The position numbers and the translations under genes were made by a program. A stretch of 35,325 nucleotides of DNA, taken from IMG/VR virus record IMGVR_UViG_3300020445_000026, positions 1-35,325 of that record; one strand, 5' to 3'. Positions 2 to 20,208 of this stretch are shown piece by piece. Below the pieces are notes generated by a model. That model saw nothing but the letters and a program-made list of their open reading frames with translations. It made no database searches and was not told the DNA's origin. This stretch comes from a virus. Numbering within the stretch: the first letter of the stretch is position 1; each line of letters opens with the position of its first letter.

Positions 2-3000
2 ATAACTCAGAAAGATTCTGTTATCTCCTTACAAGTTGGTCAGACATCTGCTGTAAACTATACACCTACGAATGCTACTTATGACCCTGTAACAGGTGAC
101 ATGGTACTGACCCTCAATCAGCACCCTGTAATCAATGGAGCATCGGCACACGCCGCTACAGATGCCTCTTACGATGCTGTAACAGGTAAGATGGAGATTA
201 CTCTTGCTAACCATGGATTTAGTAATGGTGAGAGAGTAAGGATTCCACGTGACACCTTTAAGTTCACATGTGCTATGGATGGCGATACAGCCACCAAGGC
301 ATACCCTAGAGCAACTGACGATGCTGCTGATTGGTGGCTCGAAGTTGAGGATGTTACTACTGATACCTTTAAGGTTGAAGTTGGTAAGTCTCCTATCAAG
401 AATTTCACAGTATCCGCTGCTACATACAACCCCACAAGTGGTGACTTAGTTCTAACAATTGGATCACACCGTTTAACAACTGGTGAAGGTATCAGGTTAG
501 GAAAAGATTCACTGACATTTACTTGTGATTACAATAGCGACGGTAATACAACTCAAAAGACATATCCTAGAGCAACTGGTTCATCTGCTGCTGGTGGTAA
601 AGACTACGCATATGACACTTCTCTAGACATCACAGGTACTACTGAAACTACTATCACAGTTAATGTGAACGGTGGTCAGGGTGCTATTGGTGATACAACA
701 GCACATAACTTTGTTGCTGCTTCTAAGATCCAACCATCCAATGCTTCATACAACCCAACAACGGGTGTGATGTCATTGACAGTAGTTGGTCATGGAATGG
801 AAGATGGTGAGTACATTAAGTTAGACGACAGTACAGTAACCTTTACTTGTGCTAAGGATAGCGATGCTACAAACCACACATATCCACGTGCTAGTGACCC
901 TGCTAGTGGAACATGGTTGAAGATTTCAAATAAGACTAATGATACATTCGAGATTAATGTAGGAATATCTTCTGATACTTCTGCTCATTCATTCGTATCT
1001 GCTACTGCTGGTATTACTAGAAGTCAGGTACACACTGGTGGTGACTATGCTCACACATATGTACCAGCAACAGATCTAACACCTACTGGTGCGACTTACA
1101 ATCCAACAACAGGTATAATGACTCTTACAATTCCTAACCATGGAATTGCTGATAAAGAGTATGTTAAACTTGCTGATGGTGCTGTAACATTCACTTGTAC
1201 TGAAGGTGCTGGTAACCACGCATATCCTCGTTCTACTGACCCTGCTAGTGGTAAGTGGTTAAAGACTACTTACGTAGATGCTAACAGCTTCAGTATACAA
1301 GTTCTTGCTAAGACTCCATCTACTAATACTACAACTCACACTTATGTAAGTGCTGCTGCTAATAGTGTTAAGAGAGCACAGTTCTTATTATCTAAGCAGT
1401 CGATTCTACTTGCTGATGGTGCTGTAACATTTACATGTGCCGAAGATAGTAATGCTACTAACCATTCATATCCAAGATCTACTTTAAATCAGTATACAGC
1501 TACTGATGCTTCTTATGATCCTAATGATGGTGTAATGGTAATCACCGCTAGTGGTCATGGTATGAACAATGGTTCATATATTAAGATCGATGATGGTGCT
1601 TTCACATTCAAGTGTGCTAAAGATAACTATGCTACTAACCACGCATATCCAAGATCAACTGATCCTATCAGTGGAAAATATATAAGAATTTTTGATGTAA
1701 CTACAGATACATTCAGTATAGAATGTCTAGATGTAATACCTTCTACACATACAACTATACACACATTCGTATCTGCTGTAACTAATGGCATCACAGAGAA
1801 ACGTGATCCATACCGTCTATCTGCTATCCCAGTATCAGAAGTTGGTGAGTCCATGGCTACTGTCACTGGAGCTTCTTATAATGAGACTTCAGGTGTAATG
1901 AACGTTACTGTTCTTACCCACGGTTTATCATCTGGTGATCGTGTTAAGTTTGACGAAGGTTCACTGACCTTCACATGTGCTAAGGATGGTAATGCTACGC
2001 AGCATACTTATCCTAGAAAGACTGATCCATACTATGATGAGTGGCTTCAGATCACTTCCATTGACGTTGATACATTCAGTGTTCAAGTTGGTACAGGAGG
2101 TCCAAATGATCGTTTCGCCCACTCGTTTGTCTCTGCTACCCCTGGTGGTATTAAGTTCCAAGACGGAACAGTCAGAATCAATGTCGGAAAGTCAACTAAC
2201 ACTACTGCTCACGCATTTGTTAGTGCTGTTAGTAATTCCGTCAAGACAGGAGGGGTGTATAACCATACCTTTGTTCCTTCATCAGGAATAACAGCACAGG
2301 CAGGTACAGCTTACAATCCAACTACAGGTTGGATGACAGTAACTTCTGCTGATCATGGTCTAGTAAATGGAGATTACATCACTGTAGCTGAAGGTGGAAT
2401 ATCATTTACATGTACACATGATAGTAACGTATCAACTCATGCGTACCCAAGGAAGACTGATCCTCTCTACGCAACTTATGTTGTAGTACGTAACTGTACA
2501 CAAAATACTTTTGAGTTCAATGCCCTACAAGGTACAACTCCAACAAACACTACTGTCCACACCTTCGTAAGTGCTCTAACTGGAGCAATCAAGAGGGCTG
2601 CTATTAAGGGCGGTGGTAACTACCCACACAGATTCATCTCAGCAACTGCTAATGGTGTCGAGGTATCTGGAGATAACCAAGACTGTAAGGATGACGTTCT
2701 AGATGTCCTACAGGTCGTATCTTGGAACCTTGCTATGGGTGGTAACGACTTCACCTATGATGCTGCTAACCTGTATGTAACAGGCAATCATCTAGCAGGT
2801 GAGGAACATCATGCTATCTACGCTTTACGTCAAGCAAAATCAATTGCTACTGAAGTATTCCAGAATGAGACTGTAACAACTGGTGGACATACCACTAGGT
2901 CTCAGGTTAAGGATTTAACAATCACACAGGATACAGGTCTACCAATCTGTAATACTGTGATCGCATCCCTGACTACCTTAATGAATATCATTGAGGTTGC

Positions 3001-9000: not shown

Positions 9001-9337
9001 TATCGCTTCTCTTAGTGATGGTGGTCATTGGACATTATACGAACCAGGTAGTGACCAAACTCAGTCATCCTACAGGATGCAGATCAAGGGTGATAATGGT
9101 TTAGACATTGACTCCGATTCAGTTGGTCTATCAGGTGGTCAAAGATCTGTTGTACTACGTGCTGACGGATCTAAGCAGTGGGTAGATAGGTACGGTATTA
9201 TCAAGCGTAATAACCAATCTATCTCAGAAAGTATCACTATAAATAATGGAGACTCCTGTGCTTCCTACGGTCCACTAACAGTCAACAATGGCTACACAAT
9301 CTCCATCGCATCAGGCGGTGCTTGGGTAATTCTCTAA
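2..9337 (+). CDS. Giant repeat-rich tail fibre/structural protein, 5'-truncated
   Basis: The reading frame is open from position 2 through the first ATG at 101, and the residues before that ATG already match the repeat (Y-D-P-V-T-G), so the gene continues beyond the left edge. Visible layers: about seven copies of a 90-130 residue beta-type repeat (nt 74-2670; consensus A-[ST]-Y-N-P-T-T-G, H-G, T-F-T-C, Y-P-R, T-F, H-x-F-V-S-A); a predicted helical, Cys-containing module in two copies (2674-3545); a Gly/Val-rich segment (about 3590-4010); G-x-G-Y beta repeats (5380-6650); and fibre modules typical of cyanomyoviruses with L-N-A-D-x-L-D-G (6911, 8826) and W-H-S-G-N-D (about 8065). The C-terminus ends in a short S-I-T-I-N-N-G type beta segment. 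No enzymatic motif is seen. It is very probably a virion host-recognition or baseplate-attached fibre protein; its exact position on the particle is not known. Three smaller fibre-tip-like genes follow directly. Confidence 0.85.
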   Translation: MTQKDSVISLQVGQTSAVNYTPTNATYDPVTGDMVLTLNQHPVINGASAHAATDASYDAVTGKMEITLANHGFSNGERVRIPRDTFKFTCAMDGDTATKAYPRATDDAADWWLEVEDVTTDTFKVEVGKSPIKNFTVSAATYNPTSGDLVLTIGSHRLTTGEGIRLGKDSLTFTCDYNSDGNTTQKTYPRATGSSAAGGKDYAYDTSLDITGTTETTITVNVNGGQGAIGDTTAHNFVAASKIQPSNASYNPTTGVMSLTVVGHGMEDGEYIKLDDSTVTFTCAKDSDATNHTYPRASDPASGTWLKISNKTNDTFEINVGISSDTSAHSFVSATAGITRSQVHTGGDYAHTYVPATDLTPTGATYNPTTGIMTLTIPNHGIADKEYVKLADGAVTFTCTEGAGNHAYPRSTDPASGKWLKTTYVDANSFSIQVLAKTPSTNTTTHTYVSAAANSVKRAQFLLSKQSILLADGAVTFTCAEDSNATNHSYPRSTLNQYTATDASYDPNDGVMVITASGHGMNNGSYIKIDDGAFTFKCAKDNYATNHAYPRSTDPISGKYIRIFDVTTDTFSIECLDVIPSTHTTIHTFVSAVTNGITEKRDPYRLSAIPVSEVGESMATVTGASYNETSGVMNVTVLTHGLSSGDRVKFDEGSLTFTCAKDGNATQHTYPRKTDPYYDEWLQITSIDVDTFSVQVGTGGPNDRFAHSFVSATPGGIKFQDGTVRINVGKSTNTTAHAFVSAVSNSVKTGGVYNHTFVPSSGITAQAGTAYNPTTGWMTVTSADHGLVNGDYITVAEGGISFTCTHDSNVSTHAYPRKTDPLYATYVVVRNCTQNTFEFNALQGTTPTNTTVHTFVSALTGAIKRAAIKGGGNYPHRFISATANGVEVSGDNQDCKDDVLDVLQVVSWNLAMGGNDFTYDAANLYVTGNHLAGEEHHAIYALRQAKSIATEVFQNETVTTGGHTTRSQVKDLTITQDTGLPICNTVIASLTTLMNIIEVAIDTDSLSGVTRTVSHATRCSDVASTITTLTSILTTAIGTTGSPGNLTGVARTYPISDEQCLDDIRHVIRSWMYDLRYGGNSKTIDSASKYISGTNIVNVNNEVTQTRQVYQKAKDMCVLAIRNQLPEAEFTSITPFSNGSTTVDLTKPECNAMITNLTALHTILDNALNTPTSLAGVTNTPPSTMLKDDTGIKKVPMLGDMLDLPVIEASPYIQNSSLISFLGASGAEIDGAKVAQPNVPRPGVYADANGVERPTWPHQGKSMVANAFTIISIGGGVGYNILNDGYTQLVSVFVIFGGDGVIVQSGGYASLTNSASNFGTRSLKATGYRKDAYEFDVGTITNIINQTDNNGAATGRQIIEVGGTTLTNFPVEDYIIKIDGYTNTDPSKEYFILGVEKLSGSIGTQVTANVTTNDGLGLDLVKTDGGAQIAYSQGNLTPELVGKTIRFHRPSVCNSSSHTWEYVGAGDTYLALPQNGGVGIPANEAVEEKYGQVYTSGTNEFGDFKVGDFVTIFNRTGSISFVGTVSISELSSIKIVGGNITITGFSDSDELGGAFASDSLLPTQAAVKDYINNKLGPYLNQPFSTNAVPSALVQLTTSGKINIEQIPALRPFNITSVASTAERLAIEDAAAGDIAIETTSTTFEFAPSAVDTVSEYINIPAHGLATGDALTYFQGTANIGNLADGATYYVILHSVGANTTDYIKLATSLADAQGGTPRNLSSQGSGTHKLRTEGAAVSYILENDLDSMYIAFTPDATITYTNTNLAIGSATGAQGVITDYKEGVVRDILIDEAGAGYASAPGITITAPGGGGVTATATCTITNGQISTITITNPGSKYFTQPTVTFSAPPTGGTQATAQGNVARIEARLTVDLANNIKFSDVDFMQEETNTTLATGTYVHDTYDITVTETNHGFAQGDIVYLDFTSGSSPSGFYAITPVNANEYTVTAAVALLTSGNYNRKKIVDVIRTVNTSANDAANWTQLSSTNIDASNIVAGTIDPERLADTGVANSFTFLRGDSSYQYTIQSVKFSTDDCMVAESSLSDTSYVEKVNVTVGGSGYTVGTYQNIPMLGGNVSISDAGVARATYTVADVTTGGIIASVSNLNQTPTSYTVSSTFDVEPSTTTGAGLGASIRFVSDGNGTLTVDVILDGGSGYLGGDTLTFDGPLFGGTVQQPVELTVSTLTSTQAFGVLTNCSVVTAGTGYNADFTLTVPNELGTPSVAASLTAVKGTLPRYFGNASIDLKKANKLTPTTLQAGGSVFGNYGIAKFRKNVAEQALGDQTEGGFVLTVNGEVSIDQGAGSKLNADKLDGNEGAFYQNASNLVEGVIDPQRLANTTYNISISGTADFANVLFAETTAPSSANANLVSAANVGAQLALRSNSVNGIPTDAGGTRNGTLTFRRTATGNSVAQLAFSATDNLYIRGNSDTGTVYGNWAKIWHSENDGPPDINEPRRGTLPGPNADFLDNQQGLWYQQGYNIHDQRTVGVLGDPALPTLLGRNKYIADNLYVVSSGEKYTLYIPNYKAATGTNPVGNLSAGGNYTIYADDAAVNNIGTITVDPGGINEVDDTTTGGTYTTVTGSIAFVGAYTNKDIRVFGPNPGSKWTVTSSNLLTTGASQVFALSNTANGALLEMGRAGIVATPMLDVRSGGLSNDYDVRFEFSGGDATNGNGLLDIKTSSVTVNSNTVWHSGNDGASSQLDAHYVDGWTQNSSNVNNTLVRRGSSGDISISDLYADQGIFQNTGTTILQLGDANGIHIGKATTNVLSIKGKNNGNLGYIRFGNDSNNFGWNGTHLSYNNVYFRNGRLGIGDSDPAVSLESSGDAIFGSTGRSANTYIRALAGDSYQCGFEAYGSNQGTGYLYVGQSSAYGGGIAYNGDNSPGAFGSEQGDDITFFRRENGSDNRVMKYRYNDSTVHFFGQIQSRVSTGTAPFVVASTTVVSNLNADLLDGYTATGLPYLGNQVNQWQTSNEGQRRFYFSNNSHTYYSTGSNYYWRNDADYGIASLSDGGHWTLYEPGSDQTQSSYRMQIKGDNGLDIDSDSVGLSGGQRSVVLRADGSKQWVDRYGIIKRNNQSISESITINNGDSCASYGPLTVNNGYTISIASGGAWVIL
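74..2670 (+). repeat. Protein-level tandem repeat array, about 7 copies
   Basis: Divergent in-frame repeats inside the giant structural gene. Each starts with A-[ST]-Y-[ND]-P-x-x-G, has H-G near residue 20, then T-F-T-C, then Y-P-R, then an H-x-F-V-S-A end. Copies start near nt 74 (incomplete), 167, 419, 737, 1088, 1505, 1868 and 2306. Extra fragments interrupt the array, for example a lone T-F-T-C...Y-P-R piece near 1410-1485, so array growth was partly by unequal internal duplication. Confidence 0.8.
1168..1431 (+). repeat. 24-bp direct repeat, 240 bp apart, in frame
   Basis: Positions 1168-1191 and 1408-1431 are identical over 24 nt and both encode L-A-D-G-A-V-T-F. The offset is 240 bp (80 codons), so frame is kept. 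The second copy starts a partial repeat lacking the Y-N-P-T-T-G head, which looks like the scar of a recombination within the array. Confidence 0.75.
2674..3545 (+). repeat. Duplicated helical Cys module within giant fibre
   Basis: Two related segments begin with C-[KL]-D-D-[VI] followed by W/Y...G-G-N and A-[AS]-x-[LK]-Y-[VI] (near 2683 and 3180). Three sub-repeats have the pattern C-x-x-[VM]...L-T-x-L/I...I...A followed by L-[SAT]-G-V (near 2948, 3058 and 3451). The amphipathic, beta-poor character differs from the flanking beta repeats, so this is likely a helical spacer or hinge. Confidence 0.6.
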
Positions 9338-9343
9338 AAAACT

Positions 9344-10096
9344 ATGAGTCGATTATACGTAAATAACCTGAGAGCATACTCAGGTTCAACTATTACTATT
9401 CCAGCGACAACATCGTTGTCATTGGGTGGTGCCAAAATTAATGAGTCCTCAGTTCTACCAAGTGCTTCTGGACAAACCAACAAAGCAGTTGGTAGTGATG
9501 GAGAATCAATTATATACGATACATACGGAGCTACCGCAATTCAGACCTTTACAAGTTCTGGTAGTTATAGTAAGTCTACTGGTGTTAATACCGTTATGGT
9601 TAGACTTGTTGCTGCTGGTGGAGGAGGATCTGGACATGGAGAATGTGGTGGAGCTGGTGGATTCACTGAACGTATATGCGACGTTAGTGGTGTTTCCTCA
9701 GTCTCAGTTGTTATTGGTGTAGGTGGAACTGGTACATACTATTCAGGTAGATCTGGTCAGGGTACTGCTTCATCATTCGGTTCATTCTGTACTGCTACAG
9801 GTGGTGACGGTGCTAACCAAACTTATCAGCACGCTGGTGGTTTAGGTGGAGTAGGAACGGGAGGAGATGTTAATATGTACGGGGGCGGTGGATCTGCTCA
9901 CGGAAGATATAATGGTGCTGGTGGATCATCCTTCTTTGGTGGATGTGCTGCTAGAGGTCATCCTCGTGGTGGAGATTATTCTCGTAACCACCAAAGACGA
10001 TCTGCGCCTGGTTCGGGAAGTGCTAATGCTTGGCATAGATCTTATCTGGGTCCAGAAGGGATGAATGGAATGATCGTAGTCTGGGAGTTTAAATAA
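9344..10096 (+). CDS. Glycine-rich fibre-tip/adhesin-like protein, paralogue 1
   Basis: 250 aa. The first 60 residues are a short beta module (V-N-N-L, S-G-S-T-I-T-I) like the attachment ends of cyanophage short fibres. A segment F-T-S-S-G-S-Y...V-R-L-V-A-A-G-G-G-G opens a Gly-rich domain resembling the Gly_rich_2 type, and the rest is a Gly-rich lattice with G-G-A-G-G, F-G-G and G-H-P-R-G-G motifs ending in V-V-W-E-F. Gly-rich lattices of this kind are known from T-even-type gp38 adhesins, where polyglycine helices present variable loops to the receptor; assigning that role here is inference. It starts 7 bp after the giant fibre stop and abuts the next paralogue exactly. Confidence 0.75.
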   Translation: MSRLYVNNLRAYSGSTITIPATTSLSLGGAKINESSVLPSASGQTNKAVGSDGESIIYDTYGATAIQTFTSSGSYSKSTGVNTVMVRLVAAGGGGSGHGECGGAGGFTERICDVSGVSSVSVVIGVGGTGTYYSGRSGQGTASSFGSFCTATGGDGANQTYQHAGGLGGVGTGGDVNMYGGGGSAHGRYNGAGGSSFFGGCAARGHPRGGDYSRNHQRRSAPGSGSANAWHRSYLGPEGMNGMIVVWEFK

Positions 10097-10858
10097 ATGA
10101 GTTTACTTAAAGTTAATACATTAGTACCCCAATCAGGGTCGAACGTAACTATCCAGTCAGGATATACACTTAGACTAGGTAGCAAAAACCTAGACGCTTC
10201 TAGTGTTATGCCATCTCCCAGTGGGCAGAATGGTAAGATCCTTGTAAGTAATGGATCAACTCGTAACTGGGAAGATCATGGTGCTGTCTCTATGTCTGTA
10301 TGGACATCTAATGGTACATGGTCAAGACCTACTGGAGTAAAAAGAATTCTTGTTAGAATATGTGGTGCTGGTGGAGCAGGATCTGGTGTAGGAGAAGCTG
10401 GCGGTGCTGGTGGATACGCAGAAGAAATTATTGATGTAACAGGTGTATCATCTATATCTGTTACTGTAGGACAACCTGGATCATGGGGTGGAACCTATTA
10501 TTCTGGTGGTGCTGCTAACGGTAGTTCCTCCTCTTTTGGTAACTACCTTTCTGCTGGTGGTGGAAATGGTGCTAACCGTAACTACCAACACTGTGGTGGA
10601 CTTCCTGGCGGTGGCTCAGGTGGTCAGATGAACATCTATGGTGGAGGTGGATCAGGTCATGAATATTGGTCTGGTATGCCTGGTGGTGGATCTTTCTTTG
10701 GTGGTGCTGGTGCTACTGGTCACCCTCGTGGAGGTCACTACGCTTATAACTATCAATACAGGGCTGCTAAGGGCAGTGGTGGTTCACCTGGATATCACGG
10801 ACAAAGACGTGGTGCTAGGGGAATGGCTGGTGTCGTATGTGTCTGGAACTTTAGATAA
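10097..10858 (+). CDS. Glycine-rich fibre-tip/adhesin-like protein, paralogue 2
   Basis: 253 aa, the same architecture as its neighbours: an N-terminal beta module of about 60 residues (V-N-T-L, S-G-S-N-V-T-I, L-R-L-G), then W-T-S-N-G-T-W-S-R-P-T-G-V-K, then a Gly-rich domain with A-G-G-A-G-G-Y, S-S-S-F-G-N-Y, Y-Q-H-C-G-G, G-H-P-R-G-G and a V-W-N-F end. It begins directly after the stop of paralogue 1, with the TAA ATG junction inside an A/T-rich AAATAAATG string. The framework is conserved among the three copies while residues between glycine runs differ, as expected for diversifying receptor-binding loops. Function is inferred from composition and position. Confidence 0.75.
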   Translation: MSLLKVNTLVPQSGSNVTIQSGYTLRLGSKNLDASSVMPSPSGQNGKILVSNGSTRNWEDHGAVSMSVWTSNGTWSRPTGVKRILVRICGAGGAGSGVGEAGGAGGYAEEIIDVTGVSSISVTVGQPGSWGGTYYSGGAANGSSSSFGNYLSAGGGNGANRNYQHCGGLPGGGSGGQMNIYGGGGSGHEYWSGMPGGGSFFGGAGATGHPRGGHYAYNYQYRAAKGSGGSPGYHGQRRGARGMAGVVCVWNFR

Positions 10859-10860: not shown

Positions 10861-11616
10861 ATGTCAAACGTATACACTAACGAACTCGACGCTGCGTCGG
10901 GTGAAACTATTCTGATCCCCGATGGGTACAACCTATCACTCGGTGGAACTACTATGAATAAGGACTCTATTCCTCCAAGTCCACTGGACAAGGAAGGGCA
11001 GTTCTTAATTAGTGATGGTACCTCTGCTAGTTACCAAAATATAGGACCATCAAGCATACAAACATTCTACAGTAGTGGTACATGGTACCGACCAACAGGC
11101 ATTAATAGAATCATTGTTCGCGTCATTGGAGGCGGTGGTGGTGGTTCAGGACATGCTGAATCAGGTGGTGCTGGAGGATATTGTGAAGAAGTTATCGACG
11201 TACGTGGTGTAACAAGTGTATACTGTACAGTCGGTTCAGGTTCTGGAAGTGGTACATACTACTCTGGAAATGGTGGTGGAGGTAACACATCTTCCTTTGG
11301 AAACTACTGTTCTGCTTATGGTGGACTAGGTGCTAACCAAGTTTATCAACATTGTGGTGGACTGGGTGGTGAATCAACTGGAGGAAACCTCAACATTATC
11401 GGTGGGGGCGGCATTGGTCACATGAACTATTTTGGTCATGGTGGCGGTGGCTTCTTCGGTAGTGGCACAATGAGTGCCCATGGTAACTGGTCACAAGGCA
11501 CACGATCCTCACAGTTAAGAGCTGCTAGAGGTGGTGGTGGGACATCTGGATATCAGCGTTCTTATCAAGGAGCGAATGGTATGGCTGGTGCGGTTATCAT
11601 ATTAGAATTTATCTAA
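10861..11616 (+). CDS. Glycine-rich fibre-tip/adhesin-like protein, paralogue 3
   Basis: 251 aa, third tandem paralogue, starting 2 bp after the previous stop. N-terminal beta module (T-N-E-L, S-G-E-T-I-L-I, L-S-L-G-G), then F-Y-S-S-G-T-W-Y-R-P-T-G-I-N, then the Gly-rich lattice with S-G-G-A-G-G-Y, S-S-F-G-N-Y-C, Y-Q-H-C-G-G-L-G-G and G-G-G-G-F-F-G; it ends I-I-L-E-F-I. It lacks the G-H-P-R-G-G element of the other two and has H-G-N-W-S-Q-G at the corresponding place. Likely a virion adhesin. A late-promoter-like box overlaps its stop codon and may begin a new transcript for downstream genes. Confidence 0.75.
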   Translation: MSNVYTNELDAASGETILIPDGYNLSLGGTTMNKDSIPPSPLDKEGQFLISDGTSASYQNIGPSSIQTFYSSGTWYRPTGINRIIVRVIGGGGGGSGHAESGGAGGYCEEVIDVRGVTSVYCTVGSGSGSGTYYSGNGGGGNTSSFGNYCSAYGGLGANQVYQHCGGLGGESTGGNLNIIGGGGIGHMNYFGHGGGGFFGSGTMSAHGNWSQGTRSSQLRAARGGGGTSGYQRSYQGANGMAGAVIILEFI

Positions 11617-11619
11617 ATA
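11612..11619 (+). promoter_or_regulatory. Possible T4-type late promoter box (TCTAAATA)
   Basis: TCTAAATA differs at one base from the T4 late consensus TATAAATA and lies 22 bp before the start at 11642, inside one of the few gaps in the window (11617-11641). It overlaps the TAA stop of the preceding gene, so part of the match is forced by coding. Confidence 0.4.
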
Positions 11620-11641: not shown

Positions 11642-12157
11642 ATGGCTAAAAGTTGTCTAGTAGACTACCGAGGCTTTATCACAGATATCGTTGATGTAGG
11701 TGATGAGTTCGAGGTGTACCAGGGTGATGATGCCCAGGTCAGATGGGTAATTTGTGACGATGATAATGTCACTAACCTATGGGTACTCTATAATGGTGAG
11801 TTCTTCAATAGCGAGGATCGCTTAGAACGTAACCAACAAATGAAAAGAAAGGTCGAATACGGTCAAGTCGAGGATCAACTCGATATGATGTATTGGGACC
11901 AAGTAAATGGTACTACCAAATGGAAGGATAGTATAACAGCAGTTAAGAACGCTATTGTTAATCAAGATGCTGCTGATGCTGATGCTTCTTTCTATGCGGA
12001 TAAGAAAGAATTTGAGATGGGAACTGAGGAGGCTCCAGCATGGAATAGTCTTCCTGCTAATAAGAGACAGAAGGTAACTACCTTTAAGAACCCAACAGTA
12101 TATGAAGAAGGTTGGGGTCCAGACCCTGTTACAGGGAGACCTATATATACTGGATAG
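11642..12157 (+). CDS. Hypothetical protein, possible fibre-assembly partner
   Basis: 171 aa, soluble, acidic, with no signal peptide or membrane segment. The centre carries V-E-D-Q-L-D-M-M-Y-W-D and G-T-T-K-W-K-D, a pattern seen in small proteins next to tail-fibre genes in myoviruses, some annotated as fibre assembly or structural proteins; I recognise the pattern but not a proven function. The C-terminus is W-G-P-D-P-V-T-G-R-P-I. It sits between the three Gly-rich fibre-tip genes and the halogenase cassette. AGGA at 11625 is a possible but distant ribosome binding site. A chaperone or accessory role for the preceding fibre proteins is inference. Confidence 0.55.
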   Translation: MAKSCLVDYRGFITDIVDVGDEFEVYQGDDAQVRWVICDDDNVTNLWVLYNGEFFNSEDRLERNQQMKRKVEYGQVEDQLDMMYWDQVNGTTKWKDSITAVKNAIVNQDAADADASFYADKKEFEMGTEEAPAWNSLPANKRQKVTTFKNPTVYEEGWGPDPVTGRPIYTG

Positions 12158-12174: not shown

Positions 12175-13740
12175 ATGAAAATTGAGAAGATTTGTATAGT
12201 TGGAGGCGGATCTGCTGGTTGGATAACTGCTTCTACTCTGATTAAATCACATCCATGGCTTGATATAACAGTCATAGATTCGCCAGACATACCGACGATT
12301 GGGGTAGGAGAATCCACTACTCAATTCTTTAGGGACTGGTGTAAGGAGATGAATATCTCTGATGTATGGATGGATGAATGTGAAGCGACGTATAAGTATA
12401 GTGTAAAATTCGAGAACTTCAGTGAGTACGGAGATTTCCATTACCCATTCTATGATGGTGGTGCTCCTGCTAATTCAAGTTGTGATATTTTAGAATGGTT
12501 CTTTCACTTACAGGCAACTGGTGGCAAACCAGACATGTCTTTTGCTGAGTGGATGGTTCCATATTGGAAAGTAATAGAAGATAATAAAGTAGTAGTAGAT
12601 CAATTCCAAAGTTTCGATTACACGAAAAACTCAGGGTATCACTTAGATGCTGTTAAGTTTACTAAGTGGTTGAAGAGAGAATTCTGTGGTCCTCGTGGAG
12701 TAAAGCATCATCACGATACTATTCAAGATTGTGAGAAGGATGAGTCAGGAAATATTACAACACTAATAGGTAATAAGCATGAGTATGATGCTGATCTGTT
12801 TATAGATTGTACTGGATTTAAATCACTCCTCTTAGGGGAGTACATGGGTGTTGAGTGGGAAGAGTTCCCATGGTTAATTAACAATCGTGCTTGGGCTGCG
12901 AGAGTCAAGTACATTGATAAGAAGACTGAGATGTTAAACCATACTAAGTGTACAGCACTTGATAATGGTTGGGTTTGGCATGTCCCGTTAACAACAAGAA
13001 TGGGAATAGGATATAACTTCAGTAATAAGTTCTGTTCTGATGAGGAAGCATTAAAGGAATTTAAAGAGTACCTAGGTGATCATGAGATCATAGGTGAACC
13101 TCGTTTGATCGAATGGAGAAATGGAGTATCGAAAGAGATATGGCATAAGAACGTTGTAGGTCTTGGTTTGGCTGGTGGGTTCATTGAACCACTAGAATCC
13201 AATGGCTTACTTAGTGTACACAACTTTGCTGTGTTCTTAGCAGATAGTTTGTCAGTACATAACGGTAAAGTTAATACATTGATAAGAGACCAGTTTAACC
13301 ATAGATGTCGCAAACACTTTATTTCTTTTGCTCACTTTGTGGCTAATCATTATATGATGACCACTAGGGATGATACCCCATACTGGAAATATATCAGTGA
13401 GGATATAGATTATCTTTCTGACATGGCAAGGGATGAGTATAGAGCGTACCCATTTGATAAGTTCCCATTGAGGATGGATCAAATATCTGACTGGAACTTC
13501 CAGAACCTAGCTGGTAATTCTTACATTGCTGCTGGTCATAGGCATACTCCTGCTACTGAATGGACATGCGATTACATGGATAAACGTAATAACATTGACT
13601 TAGCTTCCTTTGCTAAGTTATCATCAGGGTATCAACTCAGCGATGAGATTATAAAAGAGATAGATAAGTTCCCTGAACCTTGGGACTTTTACTACGAAGA
13701 TGTAGCTGGCATAGATAATCCTTATTACGAACATGGCTAA
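12175..13740 (+). CDS. Flavin-dependent tryptophan-halogenase family protein 1
   Basis: 521 aa, full length for the family (PrnA-type enzymes are about 500-540 aa). The FAD-binding G-G-G-S-A-G-W is at residues 10-16, followed by V-G-E-S-T at about 44-48. The lysine matching PrnA Lys79 is K74 in A-T-Y-K; the W-x-W-x-x-P motif is W266-V-W-H-V-P271 (Ile replaced by Val); the glutamate matching PrnA Glu346 is E341 in E-P-L-E-S-N-G. All elements needed to make hypochlorous acid and deliver halogen through the lysine are thus present. FADH2 would have to come from a reductase encoded elsewhere; none is in this window. The substrate is unknown: the family includes free-tryptophan, indole and carrier-bound substrates. 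The gene overlaps the second halogenase by 8 bp. Such genes occur in cyanophages, but their role is unresolved. Confidence 0.9.
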   Translation: MKIEKICIVGGGSAGWITASTLIKSHPWLDITVIDSPDIPTIGVGESTTQFFRDWCKEMNISDVWMDECEATYKYSVKFENFSEYGDFHYPFYDGGAPANSSCDILEWFFHLQATGGKPDMSFAEWMVPYWKVIEDNKVVVDQFQSFDYTKNSGYHLDAVKFTKWLKREFCGPRGVKHHHDTIQDCEKDESGNITTLIGNKHEYDADLFIDCTGFKSLLLGEYMGVEWEEFPWLINNRAWAARVKYIDKKTEMLNHTKCTALDNGWVWHVPLTTRMGIGYNFSNKFCSDEEALKEFKEYLGDHEIIGEPRLIEWRNGVSKEIWHKNVVGLGLAGGFIEPLESNGLLSVHNFAVFLADSLSVHNGKVNTLIRDQFNHRCRKHFISFAHFVANHYMMTTRDDTPYWKYISEDIDYLSDMARDEYRAYPFDKFPLRMDQISDWNFQNLAGNSYIAAGHRHTPATEWTCDYMDKRNNIDLASFAKLSSGYQLSDEIIKEIDKFPEPWDFYYEDVAGIDNPYYEHG

Positions 13741-15292
13741 AATTTGTATAGTTGGTGGTGGTTCATCTGGATGGATGACTGCTGCCGCTTTCTGCCATTT
13801 GTTTCCAGAACATAAGATACAATTAGTAGAGAGTTATCATAAACCAAAGATGAGTGTAGGAGAGTCTACACTTGGACATTTTAATAGGTACCTGAATCTA
13901 CTTGGTCTTGAAGACAAGGAGTGGATGGCAGCTTGTAATGCTACCTATAAAGTATCGATTCAATTTACCAATTGGAAAGGAGATGGAACAACATTCCAGT
14001 ATCCATTTGGTGAGACAGATTATTCAGATGGTGGTATAGTTGATTGGTACCATCTTCATAACTTATATCCAGATGAGTTTCCAGATAATACATTCTGCGA
14101 GTTCTACAATCCTATAACATATCTTGCTCAGACTAATAGAGTATATGGTAGTGGTGATTATATTCGCAACTTCAGTCCAAAATGGAATAGAGCATATCAT
14201 TTTGATTCAGATAAATTTGGGAATTGGTTAAAGGATAATAGATGTCAGAGTGTTGAACATTCTTGGGCTGATATAGAAAAGGGTGTCTTTAATAGTGATG
14301 GTGAGATTGATTACCTAGTAGACAGTCAAGGTATGATGTATCATGCTGATTATTTTATTGACTGTACAGGATTTAGATCTGCTCTCTTGGGTGGTATCAT
14401 GGGAGTACCTTATCAAAACTTTGAGTTCCTACCTAATGATCGTGCTATAGCAGCGAGGATTCCATATGAGAATCGTCGTGAACAGATGATCAATACTACT
14501 GATGGGTATGCTATGCCTGAAGGATGGGTATGGACAATTCCTTTATGGAATCGCATCGGTAAGGGATATGTTTACTCAAGTAAGTTTACTACTGAAGAAG
14601 ATGCTGAGGAGACCTTCAGAGAGCACCTGGGAGGGTTTGAGGGTGATCTACAACACATTAAGTTCAGACATGGTAGAAGGATGGACGCATGGGTGAAGAA
14701 TGTTATTGGTATTGGGTTGTCACAGGGGTTCTTAGAACCTTTGGAATCCACTGGACTCTTCAGTACACATGAAAATATTATAAGATTAATTGATGTCTTC
14801 CAACGTAGAGATGGGTTTATATCAAAACTTGATGTAGATGGTTACAACCACTCAGTCAACTATGAGATGGAAGCAATGAAAGAGTTTATTGAGATACACT
14901 ATTACTTGTCTCCAAGAACTGATACTCCTTACTGGAGACAGTTCCATGAAAGGTCTCCTCTCACTCATGAAGAAATGAATGATAAGATAGTACGGTCACC
15001 ACGATTATATCAAGAATTGATCCACTCTTTTAATATCTCAAATGCTCCTCAGGCACTGGGAGGTACTACATATATTGCTGCTGGTCTAGGGTACCATCCC
15101 TGTACAAAAGCGACTACGGAATACGTCATAAATAGAGATGAATACTCAAATGCTGAAGCAAGGCACTCTGCTGACAGGTACAAGCATTATAAGGAATCTG
15201 TACTAAGATACTTAAAGACTCAGCCCGTTCATTATGATTACCTATTGAAGAACATATATGATAATGATGAATCCTTTGAATTTATTTCGTAA
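13733..15292 (+). CDS. Flavin-dependent tryptophan-halogenase family protein 2
   Basis: 519 aa. G-G-G-S-S-G-W at residues 8-14 binds FAD; V-G-E-S-T at 42-46; catalytic-type lysine K73 in N-A-T-Y-K; canonical W-V-W-T-I-P at 265-270; E338 in F-L-E-P-L-E-S-T-G, matching PrnA Glu346. This copy keeps the textbook W-x-W-x-I-P, unlike its neighbour. The two share the scaffold but differ along most of their length, so they are diverged paralogues and may act on different positions or substrates. The start ATG lies in the last 8 bp of halogenase 1 and is probably translationally coupled; the 3' end overlaps the next gene by 35 bp. Cytoplasmic, with no signal peptide. Confidence 0.9.
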   Translation: MAKICIVGGGSSGWMTAAAFCHLFPEHKIQLVESYHKPKMSVGESTLGHFNRYLNLLGLEDKEWMAACNATYKVSIQFTNWKGDGTTFQYPFGETDYSDGGIVDWYHLHNLYPDEFPDNTFCEFYNPITYLAQTNRVYGSGDYIRNFSPKWNRAYHFDSDKFGNWLKDNRCQSVEHSWADIEKGVFNSDGEIDYLVDSQGMMYHADYFIDCTGFRSALLGGIMGVPYQNFEFLPNDRAIAARIPYENRREQMINTTDGYAMPEGWVWTIPLWNRIGKGYVYSSKFTTEEDAEETFREHLGGFEGDLQHIKFRHGRRMDAWVKNVIGIGLSQGFLEPLESTGLFSTHENIIRLIDVFQRRDGFISKLDVDGYNHSVNYEMEAMKEFIEIHYYLSPRTDTPYWRQFHERSPLTHEEMNDKIVRSPRLYQELIHSFNISNAPQALGGTTYIAAGLGYHPCTKATTEYVINRDEYSNAEARHSADRYKHYKESVLRYLKTQPVHYDYLLKNIYDNDESFEFIS

Positions 15293-16076
15293 GAAGAAAC
15301 CAAGAGCAAGATTTTTTTCACTAAATCATGGAGCACATACACTCCATCCAATAACTAAGTCTGTTGACTTAGATAGATCCTGGCGCAAGGAAGAAAAGAA
15401 AGAGTTTCAAGATAGATTAAGTAGATGTCCTATTGGTCCTCTACTGAGAGGAGAACGTGAGGAAGCAAATTCTATAGGGAGATGCCCTGCTATTAATCAA
15501 ATCATGAGGACTGGATATATTGTCCATGCTCCTGCTGATTTTAAAGTACATACTAACGGGGACGGACATACTGTTCTATTCACGCAGACAGGTTTCAGTC
15601 CACCTGGATCTGACTACGTGGTGCTTCATGATGAGAATGTATCCAAATGGTTACTGGACAGTAGCAAGGATACTACTATTGATCAGGTAGTAAAGGTGAA
15701 TACTACTTGGCGTGTACAGGCTGATGATGATGTCGTATTCCTACAAACAAAAGTACCATTTGTTAATGAGACTCGCTTCTCAGCAATAGCTGGTATACTC
15801 GATCCACGTTCTGCTTATGAAGTCAATATCCAGTTATGGTGGCACGTATTAGAAGGAGATGAATTAGTTAAAGCAGGTACTCCACTCTGTATGTACATAC
15901 CAATCTCTAGAAAATTGTTAGAAGACTTAGATGTCAGTATAGATTGTGCTGACCAAAAAGATTATAGATTAGAAGATGAGTTTATGTACAGTGGATATAA
16001 CCAGTTCCCTGAGAACGTTAGTGTAACGCAGAGGCAGTTGAAAACGAATAAAGTATTGAGGAAGTATTGGAAATGA
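15258..16076 (+). CDS. Halogenase-associated protein, possibly DUF6065-like
   Basis: 272 aa with a basic N-terminus (F-R-K-K-K-P-R-A-R). Conserved-looking blocks are C-P-A-I-N-Q near residue 79, a W-R...P-F stretch mid-protein, and G-T-P-L-C-M-Y-I-P in the C-terminal half, which resembles the G-E-P-x-C-x-x-x-P end of DUF6065 proteins that accompany tryptophan halogenases in some bacterial clusters. The match is from memory of the pattern and is weak. No catalytic residues can be named. Three in-frame ATGs (15258, 15264, 15267) lie inside the halogenase 2 gene; the first gives a 35 bp overlap. Its place between halogenases and oxygenases suggests it works with them, for example on substrate handling. 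Confidence 0.6.
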   Translation: MIMMNPLNLFRKKKPRARFFSLNHGAHTLHPITKSVDLDRSWRKEEKKEFQDRLSRCPIGPLLRGEREEANSIGRCPAINQIMRTGYIVHAPADFKVHTNGDGHTVLFTQTGFSPPGSDYVVLHDENVSKWLLDSSKDTTIDQVVKVNTTWRVQADDDVVFLQTKVPFVNETRFSAIAGILDPRSAYEVNIQLWWHVLEGDELVKAGTPLCMYIPISRKLLEDLDVSIDCADQKDYRLEDEFMYSGYNQFPENVSVTQRQLKTNKVLRKYWK

Positions 16077-16678
16077 GTGTCTTACCTTTATTTGGAGTAC
16101 CAGTTGAAAGAGGTCGCATCATACCTAATGAATATGATGATGCCCATACTGAAGATTGTTTGAACAGAATGTTTCTAGACAAGACTTTAGGTGAGTTTGA
16201 AGGTGAGTCTGGTCTATCGACTGGACCACAGACATTAAACCTACATGAGTTTGAAGAATTACAATGGTTGTTCAAACCATTGACCATGGCTGTCAGAGAG
16301 TTCTGGGTACATGTACTTGGTTACAGGAAGATGATGTATATTGATGCCCATGATGCTTGGGCTAATAAACATTTCTCAGGTGACACTACTGTTGCTCACA
16401 ACCATAGAGATGGTTGGTGGGGTCAATGTCAAGTATCTGGTGTATTCTATTTCAGAAAACCCAAAGGGTCTGCTAACATAAGGTTCATAAATCCTAACGA
16501 TGCTATACTACGCATGACACCGTATGCTACCATGTTAGGTACTAACGACCATTCTATTGAGGTTCCAGCAGAACAATATGAGTTCCTTCTGTTCCCATCA
16601 TGGGTTAAACATAGGGTACCATCTAGTAATGTAAGTCCTAGAATCTGTATTTCATTTAATTATTTTGGCCATGATTGA
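16073..16678 (+). CDS. 2OG-Fe(II) oxygenase (PF13759/TIGR02466-like)
   Basis: 201 aa from the ATG at 16073, which gives a 4 bp ATGA overlap with the previous gene; a TTG six bases earlier is less likely. The family pattern is present: N-terminal L-F-G-V-P-V, then H109-x-H111 (H-N-H) followed by S-G-V-F-Y-F, and F-P-S-W-V-K-H (distal metal ligand H180) then P-R-I-C-I-S-F-N with R190 as the expected 2-oxoglutarate-binding arginine. These enzymes use Fe(II), O2 and 2-oxoglutarate to hydroxylate or otherwise oxidise a substrate; the substrate is unknown here. It is the first of six consecutive oxygenase-type genes. Confidence 0.75.
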   Translation: MSVLPLFGVPVERGRIIPNEYDDAHTEDCLNRMFLDKTLGEFEGESGLSTGPQTLNLHEFEELQWLFKPLTMAVREFWVHVLGYRKMMYIDAHDAWANKHFSGDTTVAHNHRDGWWGQCQVSGVFYFRKPKGSANIRFINPNDAILRMTPYATMLGTNDHSIEVPAEQYEFLLFPSWVKHRVPSSNVSPRICISFNYFGHD

Positions 16679-17498
16679 AACTGTATCAGGAAACTTTATG
16701 AAAGTTTTACCAACCCCCAGACACCTGTATGATGGTACTGATATCATCAAGCCAGCAGAGGAGTGGACACATGTGTATCACAGTACACATTGGGAAGTAG
16801 ATAATATATTTGCTGATGGTGGATTGGATAGGTTAAAGGATATATGTGAGTGTTATCCTATAGAGGATATGAACAATCAAGAGACTGCGTTTGATGCCAA
16901 TCCCTTCATTGTTCATCACATACCTTACTGGTTGTTTAACCCTCTTGCTCAAGCAGTAAGAGACTTTGTTGTCATAAATTATTTTAAGAGACCTAAAGAA
17001 GAGTCCTGTATAAATGATGAACGTTTATCTGAGTGGGCTAATATCTTTTTAAGATCTGAATCTAACCCAGTTAGATATAGTGCTTTACCTCATGTGGATT
17101 ATCCATATGATGAAGGTTTCATTTCAAACCTATGGTTATCAGAACATGAACCAGGAACAACAGGCACAACCCTCTATGAGTATAAAGGAACGATTGATGA
17201 AGGACGGTACGATTTCCAAATCGATCCAAATCACCACCTCTATAAAAAGTGGCATAGTTGGTACGGAAGCGGTACCGATCACAAACCAGGATGGAATAAC
17301 TTTACAGACAAGGAAGCTTACGAGTGGGGATTTAGAAAAATAGGATTTGCTCCTGCCAAGCATGGTACGATGACAATCTATAATGCCAATACTCCACACT
17401 CACCTTATATTGCGGACAGTGTAGATTTTAGATGGAGTCATTGCTTTGGGTTTAAGTACTCTCCATTGAATTTTTCTCCTACACCATGGGATAAATGA
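16671..17498 (+). CDS. 2OG-Fe(II) oxygenase-like protein, possibly DUF6445-like
   Basis: 275 aa from ATG 16671, overlapping the upstream stop by 8 bp (a TTG at 16665 would add two residues). A probable metal triad is H141-x-D143 in P-H-V-D-Y-P and H243 in N-T-P-H-S-P, with R254 downstream as a candidate co-substrate contact. The P-H-x-D...H pattern and size resemble DUF6445-type proteins found beside tryptophan halogenases in bacteria; that link is a recollection and needs a profile search. The protein is Trp/Tyr-rich with no export signal. It is coupled by a 4 bp overlap to the next oxygenase. Confidence 0.65.
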   Translation: MIETVSGNFMKVLPTPRHLYDGTDIIKPAEEWTHVYHSTHWEVDNIFADGGLDRLKDICECYPIEDMNNQETAFDANPFIVHHIPYWLFNPLAQAVRDFVVINYFKRPKEESCINDERLSEWANIFLRSESNPVRYSALPHVDYPYDEGFISNLWLSEHEPGTTGTTLYEYKGTIDEGRYDFQIDPNHHLYKKWHSWYGSGTDHKPGWNNFTDKEAYEWGFRKIGFAPAKHGTMTIYNANTPHSPYIADSVDFRWSHCFGFKYSPLNFSPTPWDK

Positions 17499-18058
17499 TA
17501 TTAGATGAGATCTTCCCTACACCTATATGGATATTTGACTTAGAGTTTGATTTAGGTTCTATAGAGTATTGGTGTCGTAGAAAAAAAGATGAGGATACAG
17601 GTAGAGATGTATCGAACGTAGGTGGTTGGCAGTCTAATGATATCGAAGAGTTTGGTGGTACTCCATTAGAACCTTTCGTTGAATGGGTGGAGCATGAGGT
17701 AACACATCTAGCAGATGATCTAGGATGTCGTGGAGACTATCCTAAGATGGATAACCTATGGGTTAATATCAATCCTAAAGGTGGATTCAATCAACCTCAT
17801 GTACACCCTGTATCAAGATTCTCTGGTGTCTTTTATATCAAAGCACAAGAGAACTCTGGTGATCTTTGTTTCACTAGGGATGATAATGATTATGCTTTGG
17901 GATCCATCTGTCCTGATAACACTAGATACAGTAGCGCACAGTGGTTGTACAAACCTAAGATGAATCGTGCTATACTATTCCCATCATGGGTTAAGCACCA
18001 GGTTCTACCAAACGAGTCTGAAGAAGACCGCATTTCTTTAGCATTTAATTTACGATGA
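17495..18058 (+). CDS. 2OG-Fe(II) oxygenase (PF13759/TIGR02466 family)
   Basis: 187 aa and the clearest family member in the cassette. It opens with I-F-P-T-P-I-W, the usual start. N-L-W-V-N-I-N-P-K-G precedes H102-V-H104, followed by F-S-G-V-F-Y-I; then L-F-P-S-W-V-K-H (H168) and E-D-R-I-S-L-A-F-N (R179). This gives two His ligands plus a distal His and the 2-oxoglutarate arginine. Both ends have 4 bp ATGA overlaps with neighbouring oxygenases. The family is common in cyanomyoviruses but its substrate is not established; virion proteins, sugars or a halogenated product are all possible. Confidence 0.85.
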   Translation: MILDEIFPTPIWIFDLEFDLGSIEYWCRRKKDEDTGRDVSNVGGWQSNDIEEFGGTPLEPFVEWVEHEVTHLADDLGCRGDYPKMDNLWVNINPKGGFNQPHVHPVSRFSGVFYIKAQENSGDLCFTRDDNDYALGSICPDNTRYSSAQWLYKPKMNRAILFPSWVKHQVLPNESEEDRISLAFNLR

Positions 18059-18681
18059 AAGAATTTAAGAATTTTCTACCGATCTCATTAGCACATGAGA
18101 TACATGATGTAGTTACGTCTGATATATTTCCTTGGTATTGGATAGATGATGTTACTACTGCTCCTGAAGATAGGACAAATGTAACTGAGGTTCTTCCAAG
18201 TCAACCTGGGTTTCACCACACTCCATTTGTTGATGGTAAAGCTAGTGAGTGGTATCCTAGTTTTTCATTCATGTACCATTACATTCTGGACGCATTGGAA
18301 CTAGATGGAGAGGAGTGGTACCTAGCTAGGATTAGAGTAGGGATGAACTTCCCTTCAATATTTGATCAACATCAAGAACATAATGTTCCACATGTAGACT
18401 ATCCAGAGACATCAGTTGGTGAGCATTACACATGCCTATACTATGTTAATGAGTCAGATGGTCCTACTGTAATTTTCAATGAGCAACAGGAGTCTGAGAA
18501 TTATACTATACAAAATAAGTGTCATCCAGAAAAGAATAAGTTAATGGCATTCAATGGTAAGAACTATCACGCAAGTTCATGTCCTAAGGAATGTCCTGCT
18601 AGGATAGCTATTACAATTAACCTCGTAAAGAAAGGTAATCATAACCATGGTCTCGTTAAACAGTTTATGCGCCAGTCGTGA
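18055..18681 (+). CDS. 2OG-Fe(II) oxygenase, prolyl-hydroxylase-like fold
   Basis: 208 aa. The motif P-H113-V-D115-Y-P, a following C-L-Y-Y-V-N strand, H172 in N-Y-H-A-S and R183 in A-R-I-A-I-T-I-N form the HxD...H...R set of 2OG-Fe(II) dioxygenases. The order and spacing resemble prolyl 4-hydroxylase-like enzymes used on small molecules or peptides. It shares the P-H-V-D-Y-P signature with the 275-aa protein two genes upstream, so the two may be related. It has a 4 bp overlap upstream and a 35 bp overlap with the JmjC-like gene downstream. Confidence 0.75.
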   Translation: MKEFKNFLPISLAHEIHDVVTSDIFPWYWIDDVTTAPEDRTNVTEVLPSQPGFHHTPFVDGKASEWYPSFSFMYHYILDALELDGEEWYLARIRVGMNFPSIFDQHQEHNVPHVDYPETSVGEHYTCLYYVNESDGPTVIFNEQQESENYTIQNKCHPEKNKLMAFNGKNYHASSCPKECPARIAITINLVKKGNHNHGLVKQFMRQS

Positions 18682-19378
18682 TTTTATTCACAACGATGGT
18701 GCTGTACATATAAAAGGGTTCCTACAAGAACCAGAAAAGTATTGTAATTGGACTCATGTAGAGGATGCGTTATCTCGTTCTGATATGGGTTGGGAGTTAA
18801 TAAACTCTGATGGTACTAAGAAGGAGTTAGGAATGTACAAGCCCTACTGGGCACCTACTCCAGACTTTGAGAAGGAAGTTATATGGGAGCATTTGATAAA
18901 TGGATTGGGTTTTGTTATCGTTGGATATAGTAGATCTAATCAATATATAAAAGACTTATGTTCTGATATAGAAAGGGAGTTTAATGTAAATTGCTGTACC
19001 CATGTGTATGGTGGTAGGGGTTTAGGTGGATCATTCAAATGTCACTATGATCATTTTGCTAACCTTATAATACAGACTAAAGGTACTACACCATGGAAAG
19101 TATATAAGAATAGAGCAACAGCATTATACCATTCTCGGAATGATCTCGATCATAATGAAGAAGAGATGATAATTGATTGGGAAGGAGATATGAATCCTGG
19201 AGATCTATTATACATACCAGACAGAGCTTTCCACAAAGCATCTCCTAATGGAGAAAGGTTATCAATGAGCATACCCTGTATGCCTACCATATATAACAGT
19301 GAACATTATGACCGACGTAATTACACATTCCCCAATACTAAAAGTCAAGAAGGGTCTGATCCCTCTACCGATAGTTGA
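18647..19378 (+). CDS. JmjC/cupin-type 2OG oxygenase
   Basis: 243 aa. H133-Y-D135-H-F-A-N, then G-T-T-P-W-K-V-Y, M-N-P-G-D-L-L-Y-I-P, and H196 in F-H-K-A-S form the H-x-D...H signature of the ROXA/NO66 (cupin_4, PF08007) group of JmjC oxygenases. Known members hydroxylate ribosomal proteins, which makes protein hydroxylation a reasonable idea here, though it is not shown. The protein lacks the C-terminal winged-helix part of cellular enzymes and is essentially a catalytic core. The start lies 35 bp inside the previous gene; no later start keeps the first helix. Confidence 0.75.
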   Translation: MVSLNSLCASRDFIHNDGAVHIKGFLQEPEKYCNWTHVEDALSRSDMGWELINSDGTKKELGMYKPYWAPTPDFEKEVIWEHLINGLGFVIVGYSRSNQYIKDLCSDIEREFNVNCCTHVYGGRGLGGSFKCHYDHFANLIIQTKGTTPWKVYKNRATALYHSRNDLDHNEEEMIIDWEGDMNPGDLLYIPDRAFHKASPNGERLSMSIPCMPTIYNSEHYDRRNYTFPNTKSQEGSDPSTDS

Positions 19379-19922
19379 ATTCGCTTATACTGAATTCAGA
19401 TTGATGAGGGATGCCTTACTTGCAATGGGTAGTAAGGAGGGTTATAATGATCCTACAGTACCAGGTTGTTTTTCTTGGTATTCTCCACTATGTTTTGAAG
19501 CATTAAGTTTATATGTTAAACCTATTGTAGAGGAAATTCTAGGTACGGATCTCCATCCGACCTATTCATATGGTCGCATATATACTGAGGGAAGTGAGTT
19601 GGTAAAACACACTGATCGCCGATCTTCACAGTTGGCAGTTAACGTTTCTCTTGCAAGAGACACTCAATGGGATTTACTATTTGAATGGATGGGACAGGAG
19701 TTGAGGGTTGACTTAGAACCAGGAGATGTGGTAATATATACGGGAACTATTCCTCATTGGAGGGAAAAGTACACTGGTAAGGAACATGTGAATGCTTTCT
19801 TACAGTTCGTGTACGCTGATGGTGAGTACAGTGACTTGAGATATGACACTCGTCCTTATCTTGCTACTCCTTATACTATGACCCAACAGCACATTAAAGA
19901 CGAAGTACAAAATTATGTCTGA
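19308..19922 (+). CDS. 2OG-Fe(II) oxygenase, P4H-like
   Basis: 204 aa from ATG 19308; a GTG nine bases earlier and an ATG at 19404 are alternatives. Y-G-R-I-Y-x-x-G...H101-T-D103-R-R, then a W-D-L-L-F strand, P-G-D-V-V-I-Y-x-G and H150-W-R-E form an H-x-D...H metal site. This form (H-x-D-R followed by G-D...Y-x-G...H-W-R) is a recurring oxygenase type in T4-like cyanophages. The expected 2-oxoglutarate-binding residue is less obvious than in its neighbours. The 71 bp overlap with the JmjC-like gene is the longest in the window, so the true start could be later, but the region before 19404 (P-L-P-I-V-E-F) looks like the family's N-terminus. Confidence 0.7.
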   Translation: MTDVITHSPILKVKKGLIPLPIVEFAYTEFRLMRDALLAMGSKEGYNDPTVPGCFSWYSPLCFEALSLYVKPIVEEILGTDLHPTYSYGRIYTEGSELVKHTDRRSSQLAVNVSLARDTQWDLLFEWMGQELRVDLEPGDVVIYTGTIPHWREKYTGKEHVNAFLQFVYADGEYSDLRYDTRPYLATPYTMTQQHIKDEVQNYV

Positions 19923-20208
19923 TGAAAACACAGCTCCCGCTACTGAGGAAACTCAGCAAGAGGGATGGACATTCGACCAGGTATGGGAGGACTTTATAAG
20001 TCAACTTACTCAGGCTCGTGTGGATGTCAAAGAAAAGGAAGAAGAGTTAGAAAAGAATTCTAGTCTTATGACAAGGATTGATTTAACTGAAGTTAATGAC
20101 GCTCGCAATAAAGTGAATCGTCTTGAGGGTGCTATTGAAGCACTAGATATCGTACGCACACAAGTAATTGGTGTGGAATCTCTTATTAAACGTGAGGAAT
20201 CTAAATGA
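19915..20208 (+). CDS. Small coiled-coil protein A
   Basis: 97 aa, acidic. A disordered Thr/Glu-rich start is followed by W-T-F-D-Q-V-W-E-D-F, then a Lys/Glu-rich heptad-like helix from about residue 30 to the end with N-R-L-E-G-A-I-E-A-L. It has an 8 bp overlap with the upstream oxygenase and a 4 bp overlap with the next gene. The R-L-x-G-A-I-E-[AG]-L element recurs in the next protein, so the two may be distant paralogues or partners forming a mixed coiled coil. A structural or assembly role is plausible; function unknown. Confidence 0.65.
   Translation: MSDENTAPATEETQQEGWTFDQVWEDFISQLTQARVDVKEKEEELEKNSSLMTRIDLTEVNDARNKVNRLEGAIEALDIVRTQVIGVESLIKREESK

Follow-up and report, generated by a model that had tools for sequence, protein, structure and literature searches.

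The 35,325 bp stretch of viral DNA analysed here (IMG/VR record IMGVR_UViG_3300020445_000026, hereafter the window) is the whole of that virus record, a T4-like cyanomyovirus segment that is probably part of a larger phage genome. It carries a block of two flavin-dependent halogenases (FDHs), the beta-clip protein g3 and six 2-oxoglutarate (2OG)-Fe(II)/JmjC oxygenases (ox4–ox9), head to tail, behind three glycine-rich fibre-tip proteins and the candidate chaperone p171 (Table 1). We consider it fairly probable that this block is a late receptor-binding-protein maturation operon, which would halogenate and hydroxylate the fibre tips during their chaperoned assembly. Modification of the tips or of the adjacent fibre is favoured because of a late-promoter motif, the chaperone-first layout, the linkage of the enzymes to the tips and a kinship to protein hydroxylases.

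The window encodes, in order, a 3078-residue fibre protein, the three glycine-rich proteins (adhA, adhB and adhC), p171, the enzyme block and a fibre protein with an S8 protease domain, followed by neck, sheath-stabiliser and small-terminase genes. The initial annotation described eight enzymes and one additional protein, and all nine open reading frames (ORFs) were found where it had placed them, on the plus strand and overlapping by 4 to 71 bp if ATG 19308 is taken as the start of ox9 (19299 is the alternative). The starts of ox4 and ox5 are probably ATG 16073 and ATG 16671, instead of the listed TTG codons.

Gene order around the halogenases, which the initial annotation had proposed to compare among cyanophages, is conserved in the cultured cyanomyoviruses S-RIM44, syn9/Syn10, P-TIM40, S-CREM1 and Sf-CH3, as well as in about one hundred viral contigs. 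About 60 loci from the initial scans show it, as do several cultured phages and later scans anchored on other genes, a recurrence beyond chance. Judging from small-terminase matches, the phage collection contains about 479 related records. S-RIM44 (gp165–157) corresponds to the window one-to-one in genes and order, and syn9 (gp41–54), Sf-CH3, P-TIM40 and S-CREM1 have the cassette genes in a common order. The genes of these known cassettes carry separate, unconnected annotations (halogenase, 'DNA endonuclease V', 'ferrochelatase', 'minor coat protein'); moreover, Sf-CH3 and S-CREM1 have a single FDH, syn9 and S-CREM1 have additional oxygenases, and P-TIM40 is without some of those in the window. 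Shorter or longer versions are found in syn9, Syn10, P-TIM40, S-CREM1, Sf-CH3 and Sf-FR1, and more distant ones in S-SZBM1, S-WAM1 and P-RSM6. The same genes, at 59–75% identity, are present on a short contig of a single-cell genome of Prochlorococcus, which hints at the host. The cassette itself is not unique; what is new is the cassette, tips and chaperone as one unit. No description of halogenases, oxygenases and fibre tips as one unit was found in the literature searched (subscription papers lay mostly outside it). The initial annotation had regarded so dense a set as unexplained, which fits that literature; however, public genomes have included this set ever since that of syn9, and work on VirX1 has dealt with one of the halogenases.

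The enzymes are linked to the fibre tips. Among loci anchored on the chaperone and extending 2.5 kb or more downstream of it (drawn from the best scoring 80 of 241, so that distant relatives are under-sampled), an FDH lies within 5 kb in 66/66 and an oxygenase as well in 63/66. When loci were anchored on the adhesin, an FDH was present in 34/34 of the best matches, and in 40/51 with weak glycine-rich matches included. Homologues scattered without fibre neighbours had been named in the initial annotation as the pattern that would speak against its proposal; these counts favour the fibres instead. Tips of the syn9 gp38 type occur in 20 of 50,697 phage records, all 20 of which have an FDH of the VirX1 clade. 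The module is found at two genome sites, either before the neck genes or elsewhere downstream of fibre genes, and lies behind tips at both. In three contigs (L230, L231 and L241) the whole enzyme block is inverted relative to the tips and chaperone and is still adjacent to them; the linkage is therefore independent of a shared transcript.

The association has variants. A tip, chaperone and oxygenases are present in L240 and L242, where no FDH was found. In Sf-CH11/CH1a an FDH and oxygenases are flanked by other fibre-tip genes, and in S-H35/S-B64 the FDH is next to a peptidase. A second group of contigs (L074–L101, including L080 and L089), probably freshwater by their sample codes, has as many as three FDHs (LEASS, LEASS, LEANG), g3 and several oxygenases near neck genes, with no glycine-rich tips detected.

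Co-inheritance was assessed in 13 loci, some of them near-copies. Within these loci ox9 is mostly about 0.5 kb from the neck gene gp13, and the tip is some 7 kb upstream of ox9. The distances of ox9 correlate with those of FDH2 (0.92), g3 (0.95) and the tip (0.85; partial 0.77), but with those of gp13 at only 0.57, and the partial correlation between ox9 and gp13 given the tip is −0.12. Since ox9 tracks the tip and not gp13, an evolutionary border runs between the cassette and the neck gene, with the tips inside.

In 51/62 loci the 60 bp preceding p171 contain the motif NTAAATA, which stands ahead of 33/687 internal genes of the cassette and is found in 2.6% of random 60-mers; the Fisher P-value (1.6e-45) overstates the evidence, since related loci are not independent. 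The same motif precedes the late gene gp13 in 24/27 cases, and its CTAAATA variant is found upstream of 10/27 gp13 relatives. In cyanophage S-PM2 the late motif is NATAAATA (PMC2984593). CTAAATA is not enriched over the whole window, and its significance rests on its position across loci. On this basis the block is presumably expressed late.

Polar residues are conserved between the glycine stretches of adhA, adhB and adhC, and relatives of adhB in the phage collection were found in cassette-bearing phages only. The adhesin profile gave no relevant match among PDB sequences; we liken these proteins to the tips of phages Pam3 and S16 because of their PHROG fibre matches, their composition and the presence of p171. 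In the marine loci p171 is located between the adhesin and the FDH. Its AlphaFold2 model comprises an N-terminal beta domain and helices, and among its structural matches with Z of 2 or more the best, both weak, were the fibre complex of cyanophage Pam3 (Z 3.8) and the fibre chaperone of Mu (Z 2.9). We regard p171 as a probable Tfa-like fibre chaperone. In Pam3, gp24–gp25 constitute a glycine-rich tip and its chaperone (PMC9608196). With its glycine-rich tips and, behind them, a candidate chaperone of two domains, the window resembles Pam3 gp24–gp25 (PDB 7YPX), the gp38 adhesin of phage S16 and Tfa of Mu (PMC9608196), for which no modifying enzymes are described in the literature searched.

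Both halogenases contain the GxGxxG motif that binds flavin adenine dinucleotide, the WxWxxP motif and the catalytic Lys and Glu, which are invariant in 68/68 and 76/76 relatives. By synteny FDH2 is orthologous to VirX1, an iodinating halogenase from cyanophage Syn10. Along its whole length VirX1 (6QGM) is identical to CPUG_00131, which is the second halogenase in the cassette of Syn10, and FDH2 and VirX1 share fold family, Lys/Glu pair, EPLESTG motif and location in the cassette. VirX1 itself has been characterised in isolation and on small substrates, and the literature searched describes neither its native substrate nor its operon context. Its active site is open and takes bulky substrates (PMC8407142). 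FDH1, which shares 46% with syn9 gp41, and FDH2 are old paralogues; FDH1 is set apart from VirX1 by its EPLESNG motif. In two-FDH cassettes ESN(G/S) is almost always in the first FDH and ESTG in the second, nearly all single-FDH marine cassettes have ESTG, and the ESN group forms one branch (SH-like approximate likelihood-ratio test, 96). As the solved FDHs in our alignments have ESTG, the halide or substrate preference of FDH1 may have changed. The best NCBIfam match of FDH1, below the cut-off, is QhpG, which acts on a Trp within a peptide.

The oxygenases retain their metal sites. Metal ligands and distal Arg are invariant across the fetched relatives of ox4, ox6, ox7, ox8 and ox9; in ox5 the ligands are kept in 51/51 and the Arg in 50/51. 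The site is HxH...H, not HxD...H, in ox4 and ox6 and is invariant within their family, while ox5, ox7 and ox9 were assigned by PHROG matches together with the HxD...H motif. The ratio of non-synonymous to synonymous substitution rates (dN/dS) for the cassette enzymes against the closest relative is 0.07–0.36, and the enzymes are under purifying selection. These values, with the (near-)invariant residues, agree with the initial view that both halogenases keep their Lys/Glu pair and the oxygenases their ligands, and that the block is no decaying cargo. The JmjC_2 match of ox8 (PF08007) scored 56.3 bits against a cut-off of 22, and its nearest PDB entries are YxbC/putative asparaginyl hydroxylase (E 1e-6) and the histidyl hydroxylase NO66 (E 7e-4). 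Judged by sequence, its closest kin are protein Asn/His/Arg hydroxylases. NO66, MINA53, RoxA and YxbC have the JmjC_2 domain and the metal ligands in common with ox8; ox8 is the shorter protein, and it matches NO66 and RoxA with modest E-values. A defence-system library gave only generic 2OG matches. The PHROG labels 'DNA endonuclease V' (ox7, phrog_274), 'ferrochelatase' (ox9, phrog_2954) and 'minor coat protein' (ox5, phrog_1644) were discarded because these proteins and their relatives have conserved HxD...H...R motifs; the propagated labels are likely misannotations. A seventh 2OG-Fe(II) oxygenase (phrog_81) is encoded at 31095–31703, outside the cassette and 3' of the small terminase gene.

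The remaining cassette protein, g3, has a model that aligns with dUTPases (Z up to 9.4 over 121 residues, 2.5 Å; Foldseek E 2.4e-4). About 120 residues superpose on the dUTPase/dCTP-deaminase beta-clip fold; however, identity in the structural matches is about 9–19% and g3 has extra helical parts. The ORF had been labelled possibly 'DUF6065-like' in the initial annotation. The ORF is real, but the label is weakly supported, as 2/14 family members match PF19541 (best E 0.076) and g3 of the window does not. A search for a bacterial source of g3 gave only two contigs, that from the Prochlorococcus single-cell genome and a P-TIM40-like phage segment in a Nonlabens assembly, and a cellular counterpart was therefore not found. 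The latter stretch (L109; Nonlabens xiamenensis assembly NZ_RMVE01000006.1) is a P-TIM40-like cyanophage and probably contaminates the bacterial assembly. Four loci (L068, L069, L071 and L094) have g3 alone with no halogenase in reach, and its neighbour there looks by eye like a UV-damage endonuclease.

In the proposed mechanism, the operon would open with the Tfa-like chaperone p171, followed by the two halogenases, g3 as a beta-clip accessory and the six oxygenases. During assembly p171 would hold the glycine-rich tip proteins while the enzymes act. The halogenases would target aromatic side-chains (Trp, Tyr) and the oxygenases would hydroxylate other residues (such as His, Asn, Asp, Arg and Pro), in both cases on the tips or their immediate fibre partner, and the modification would change tip stability or receptor binding. 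Modification of fibre proteins is the best supported of the initial hypotheses by virtue of the fibre linkage; the tip chemistry, by contrast, is something we infer, since no mass-spectrometric evidence of modification was found, and so are the substrate, the modified residues and the benefit.

Several observations weigh against this proposal. The literature searched records no modified virion peptide, and the text consulted on the S-SZBM1 virion proteome reports no tip protein. VirX1 has been assayed with small aromatics only (PMC8407142). The structural matches of p171 are weak, and an aromatic column present in tips or chaperone only together with FDH1 was sought and not found. Sf-CH11 and S-H35 have VirX1-clade FDHs without these tips. 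Finally, the loci are related, so that the counts do not represent independent events.

Tip modification fits better than small-molecule synthesis, host-surface modification or DNA repair. Inside infected cells the block might produce a small compound that is halogenated and hydroxylated, such as an antibiotic protecting the infected host, as in the published pyrrolnitrin idea. Tailoring of natural products is the usual role of FDHs, small aromatics are the in vitro substrates of VirX1 (PMC8407142) and antibiotic protection has been suggested in cyanophage papers. However, Pfam and PHROG scans of the cassette and its neighbours for scaffold and carrier enzymes recognized no scaffold-building enzyme, carrier protein or transporter in the block; the late-promoter motif stands before a chaperone and the tip linkage persists after inversion. 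We regard such a compound as unlikely. The enzymes could instead act on the surface of the host or on its receptor (LPS, S-layer, outer-membrane proteins), for instance against superinfection or to free progeny from debris, and a shared receptor would explain why they travel with the tips. The co-occurrence and co-inheritance data apply equally to this possibility, but the late-promoter motif argues against it, as does the expectation that enzymes dependent on FADH2 (reduced flavin adenine dinucleotide) or 2OG act in the cytoplasm, where tips are assembled, and we find it quite unlikely.

That the linkage has no function, the adhesin locus being a recombination hot spot whose swapped fibre segments carry the enzymes as hitchhikers, is very unlikely in our judgement. 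Fibre loci are indeed exchange hot spots, and the cassette and tips have a common history distinct from that of the neck genes; yet the enzymes are ordered with intact catalytic residues and low dN/dS, two FDH paralogues stay in fixed order, and the linkage outlasts both inversion and relocation. A role in auxiliary metabolism, in which 2OG consumption tunes the nitrogen-stress response, or in DNA/RNA repair follows published proposals for cyanophage 2OG oxygenases (PMC3037559). We hold it to be highly improbable, as it leaves the FDHs unexplained, and six different, ordered oxygenases with halogenases stay beside tips at two genome sites.

Table 1. Coordinates and supporting evidence for the fibre, chaperone and cassette features of the window.
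Feature	Position	Strand	Evidence
Long fibre protein, 3078 residues, immediately 5' of tips	101..9337	+	ORF; matches large fibre/structural gene at equivalent place in S-RIM44, Sf-CH3, Sf-FR1
adhA, glycine-rich fibre-tip protein, candidate substrate	9344..10096	+	PF21722; phrog_863/21412/6202 tail fibre matches
adhB, glycine-rich fibre-tip protein, candidate substrate	10097..10858	+	PF21722; phrog_863/21412/6202 tail fibre matches
adhC, glycine-rich fibre-tip protein, candidate substrate	10861..11616	+	PHROG tail fibre matches; Pfam match just under cut-off
CTAAATA, late-promoter-like element before chaperone gene	11613..11619	+	Position across loci
p171, Tfa-like tail-fibre chaperone candidate, 171 residues, first gene of unit	11642..12157	+	AlphaFold2 model (predicted local distance difference test, pLDDT, 86.7); weak structural matches
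FDH1, flavin-dependent halogenase, EPLESNG halide-site variant	12175..13740	+	PF04820 E 6e-91
FDH2, VirX1 syntenic orthologue, EPLESTG	13733..15292	+	PF04820 E 2e-103; best PDB match VirX1 6qgm, 452 bits
g3, dUTPase/beta-clip-fold protein (phrog_7084)	15258..16076	+	AlphaFold2 pLDDT 87.2; fold matches
ox4, PF13759/TIGR02466 oxygenase	16067..16678	+	H111/H113/H182/R192 in 121/121
ox5, 2OG-oxygenase-like (phrog_3234/phrog_1644, weakly DUF6445)	16665..17498	+	H143/D145/H245 in 51/51, R256 in 50/51
ox6, PF13759/TIGR02466 oxygenase	17495..18058	+	H102/H104/H168/R179 in 44/44
ox7, 2OG-oxygenase-like (phrog_274)	18055..18681	+	H113/D115/H172/R183 in 119/119
ox8, JmjC/ribosomal-oxygenase-like hydroxylase	18647..19378	+	PF08007; H133/D135/H196 in 53/53
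ox9, HxD...H oxygenase-like (phrog_2954, 'ferrochelatase' in records)	19308..19922	+	H101/D103/H150/R152 in 62/62
s97, small conserved companion protein	19915..20208	+	phrog_20247

Downstream of the enzymes, s97 is found at the 3' end of the cassette in the window and after g3 in syn9-type loci. A 124-residue ORF on the minus strand (20431–20805; phrog_26228) lies between the small genes of the cassette and the S8 protein; reverse-strand genes are rare in the window. The protease that the initial annotation placed beside the cassette is genuine: the 1946-residue protein at 20766–26606 has an S8 subtilase domain (PF00082) at residues 272–573 and a long, apparently repetitive region that is Ig-like by eye. 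Its gene is also present in the close relatives of the window, and S-RIM44-type loci are without such a gene between cassette and gp13.

In the literature searched, the guesses at the substrate of VirX1 and the role of the many cyanophage 2OG oxygenases are host antibiotic protection, DNA repair and nitrogen signalling. One presumably late operon tied to the tips makes both directly testable in existing isolates (Syn9, Syn10 and S-RIM44). We see an even chance that marine T4-like phages have a virus-encoded system of protein halogenation and hydroxylation, editing glycine-rich tips with two halogenases, six oxygenases and a dedicated chaperone, and that this is the native role of VirX1. If so, the host-binding surface of abundant ocean viruses would display virion proteins with halogenated and hydroxylated residues, adding to host recognition a new layer that standard proteomics would miss.

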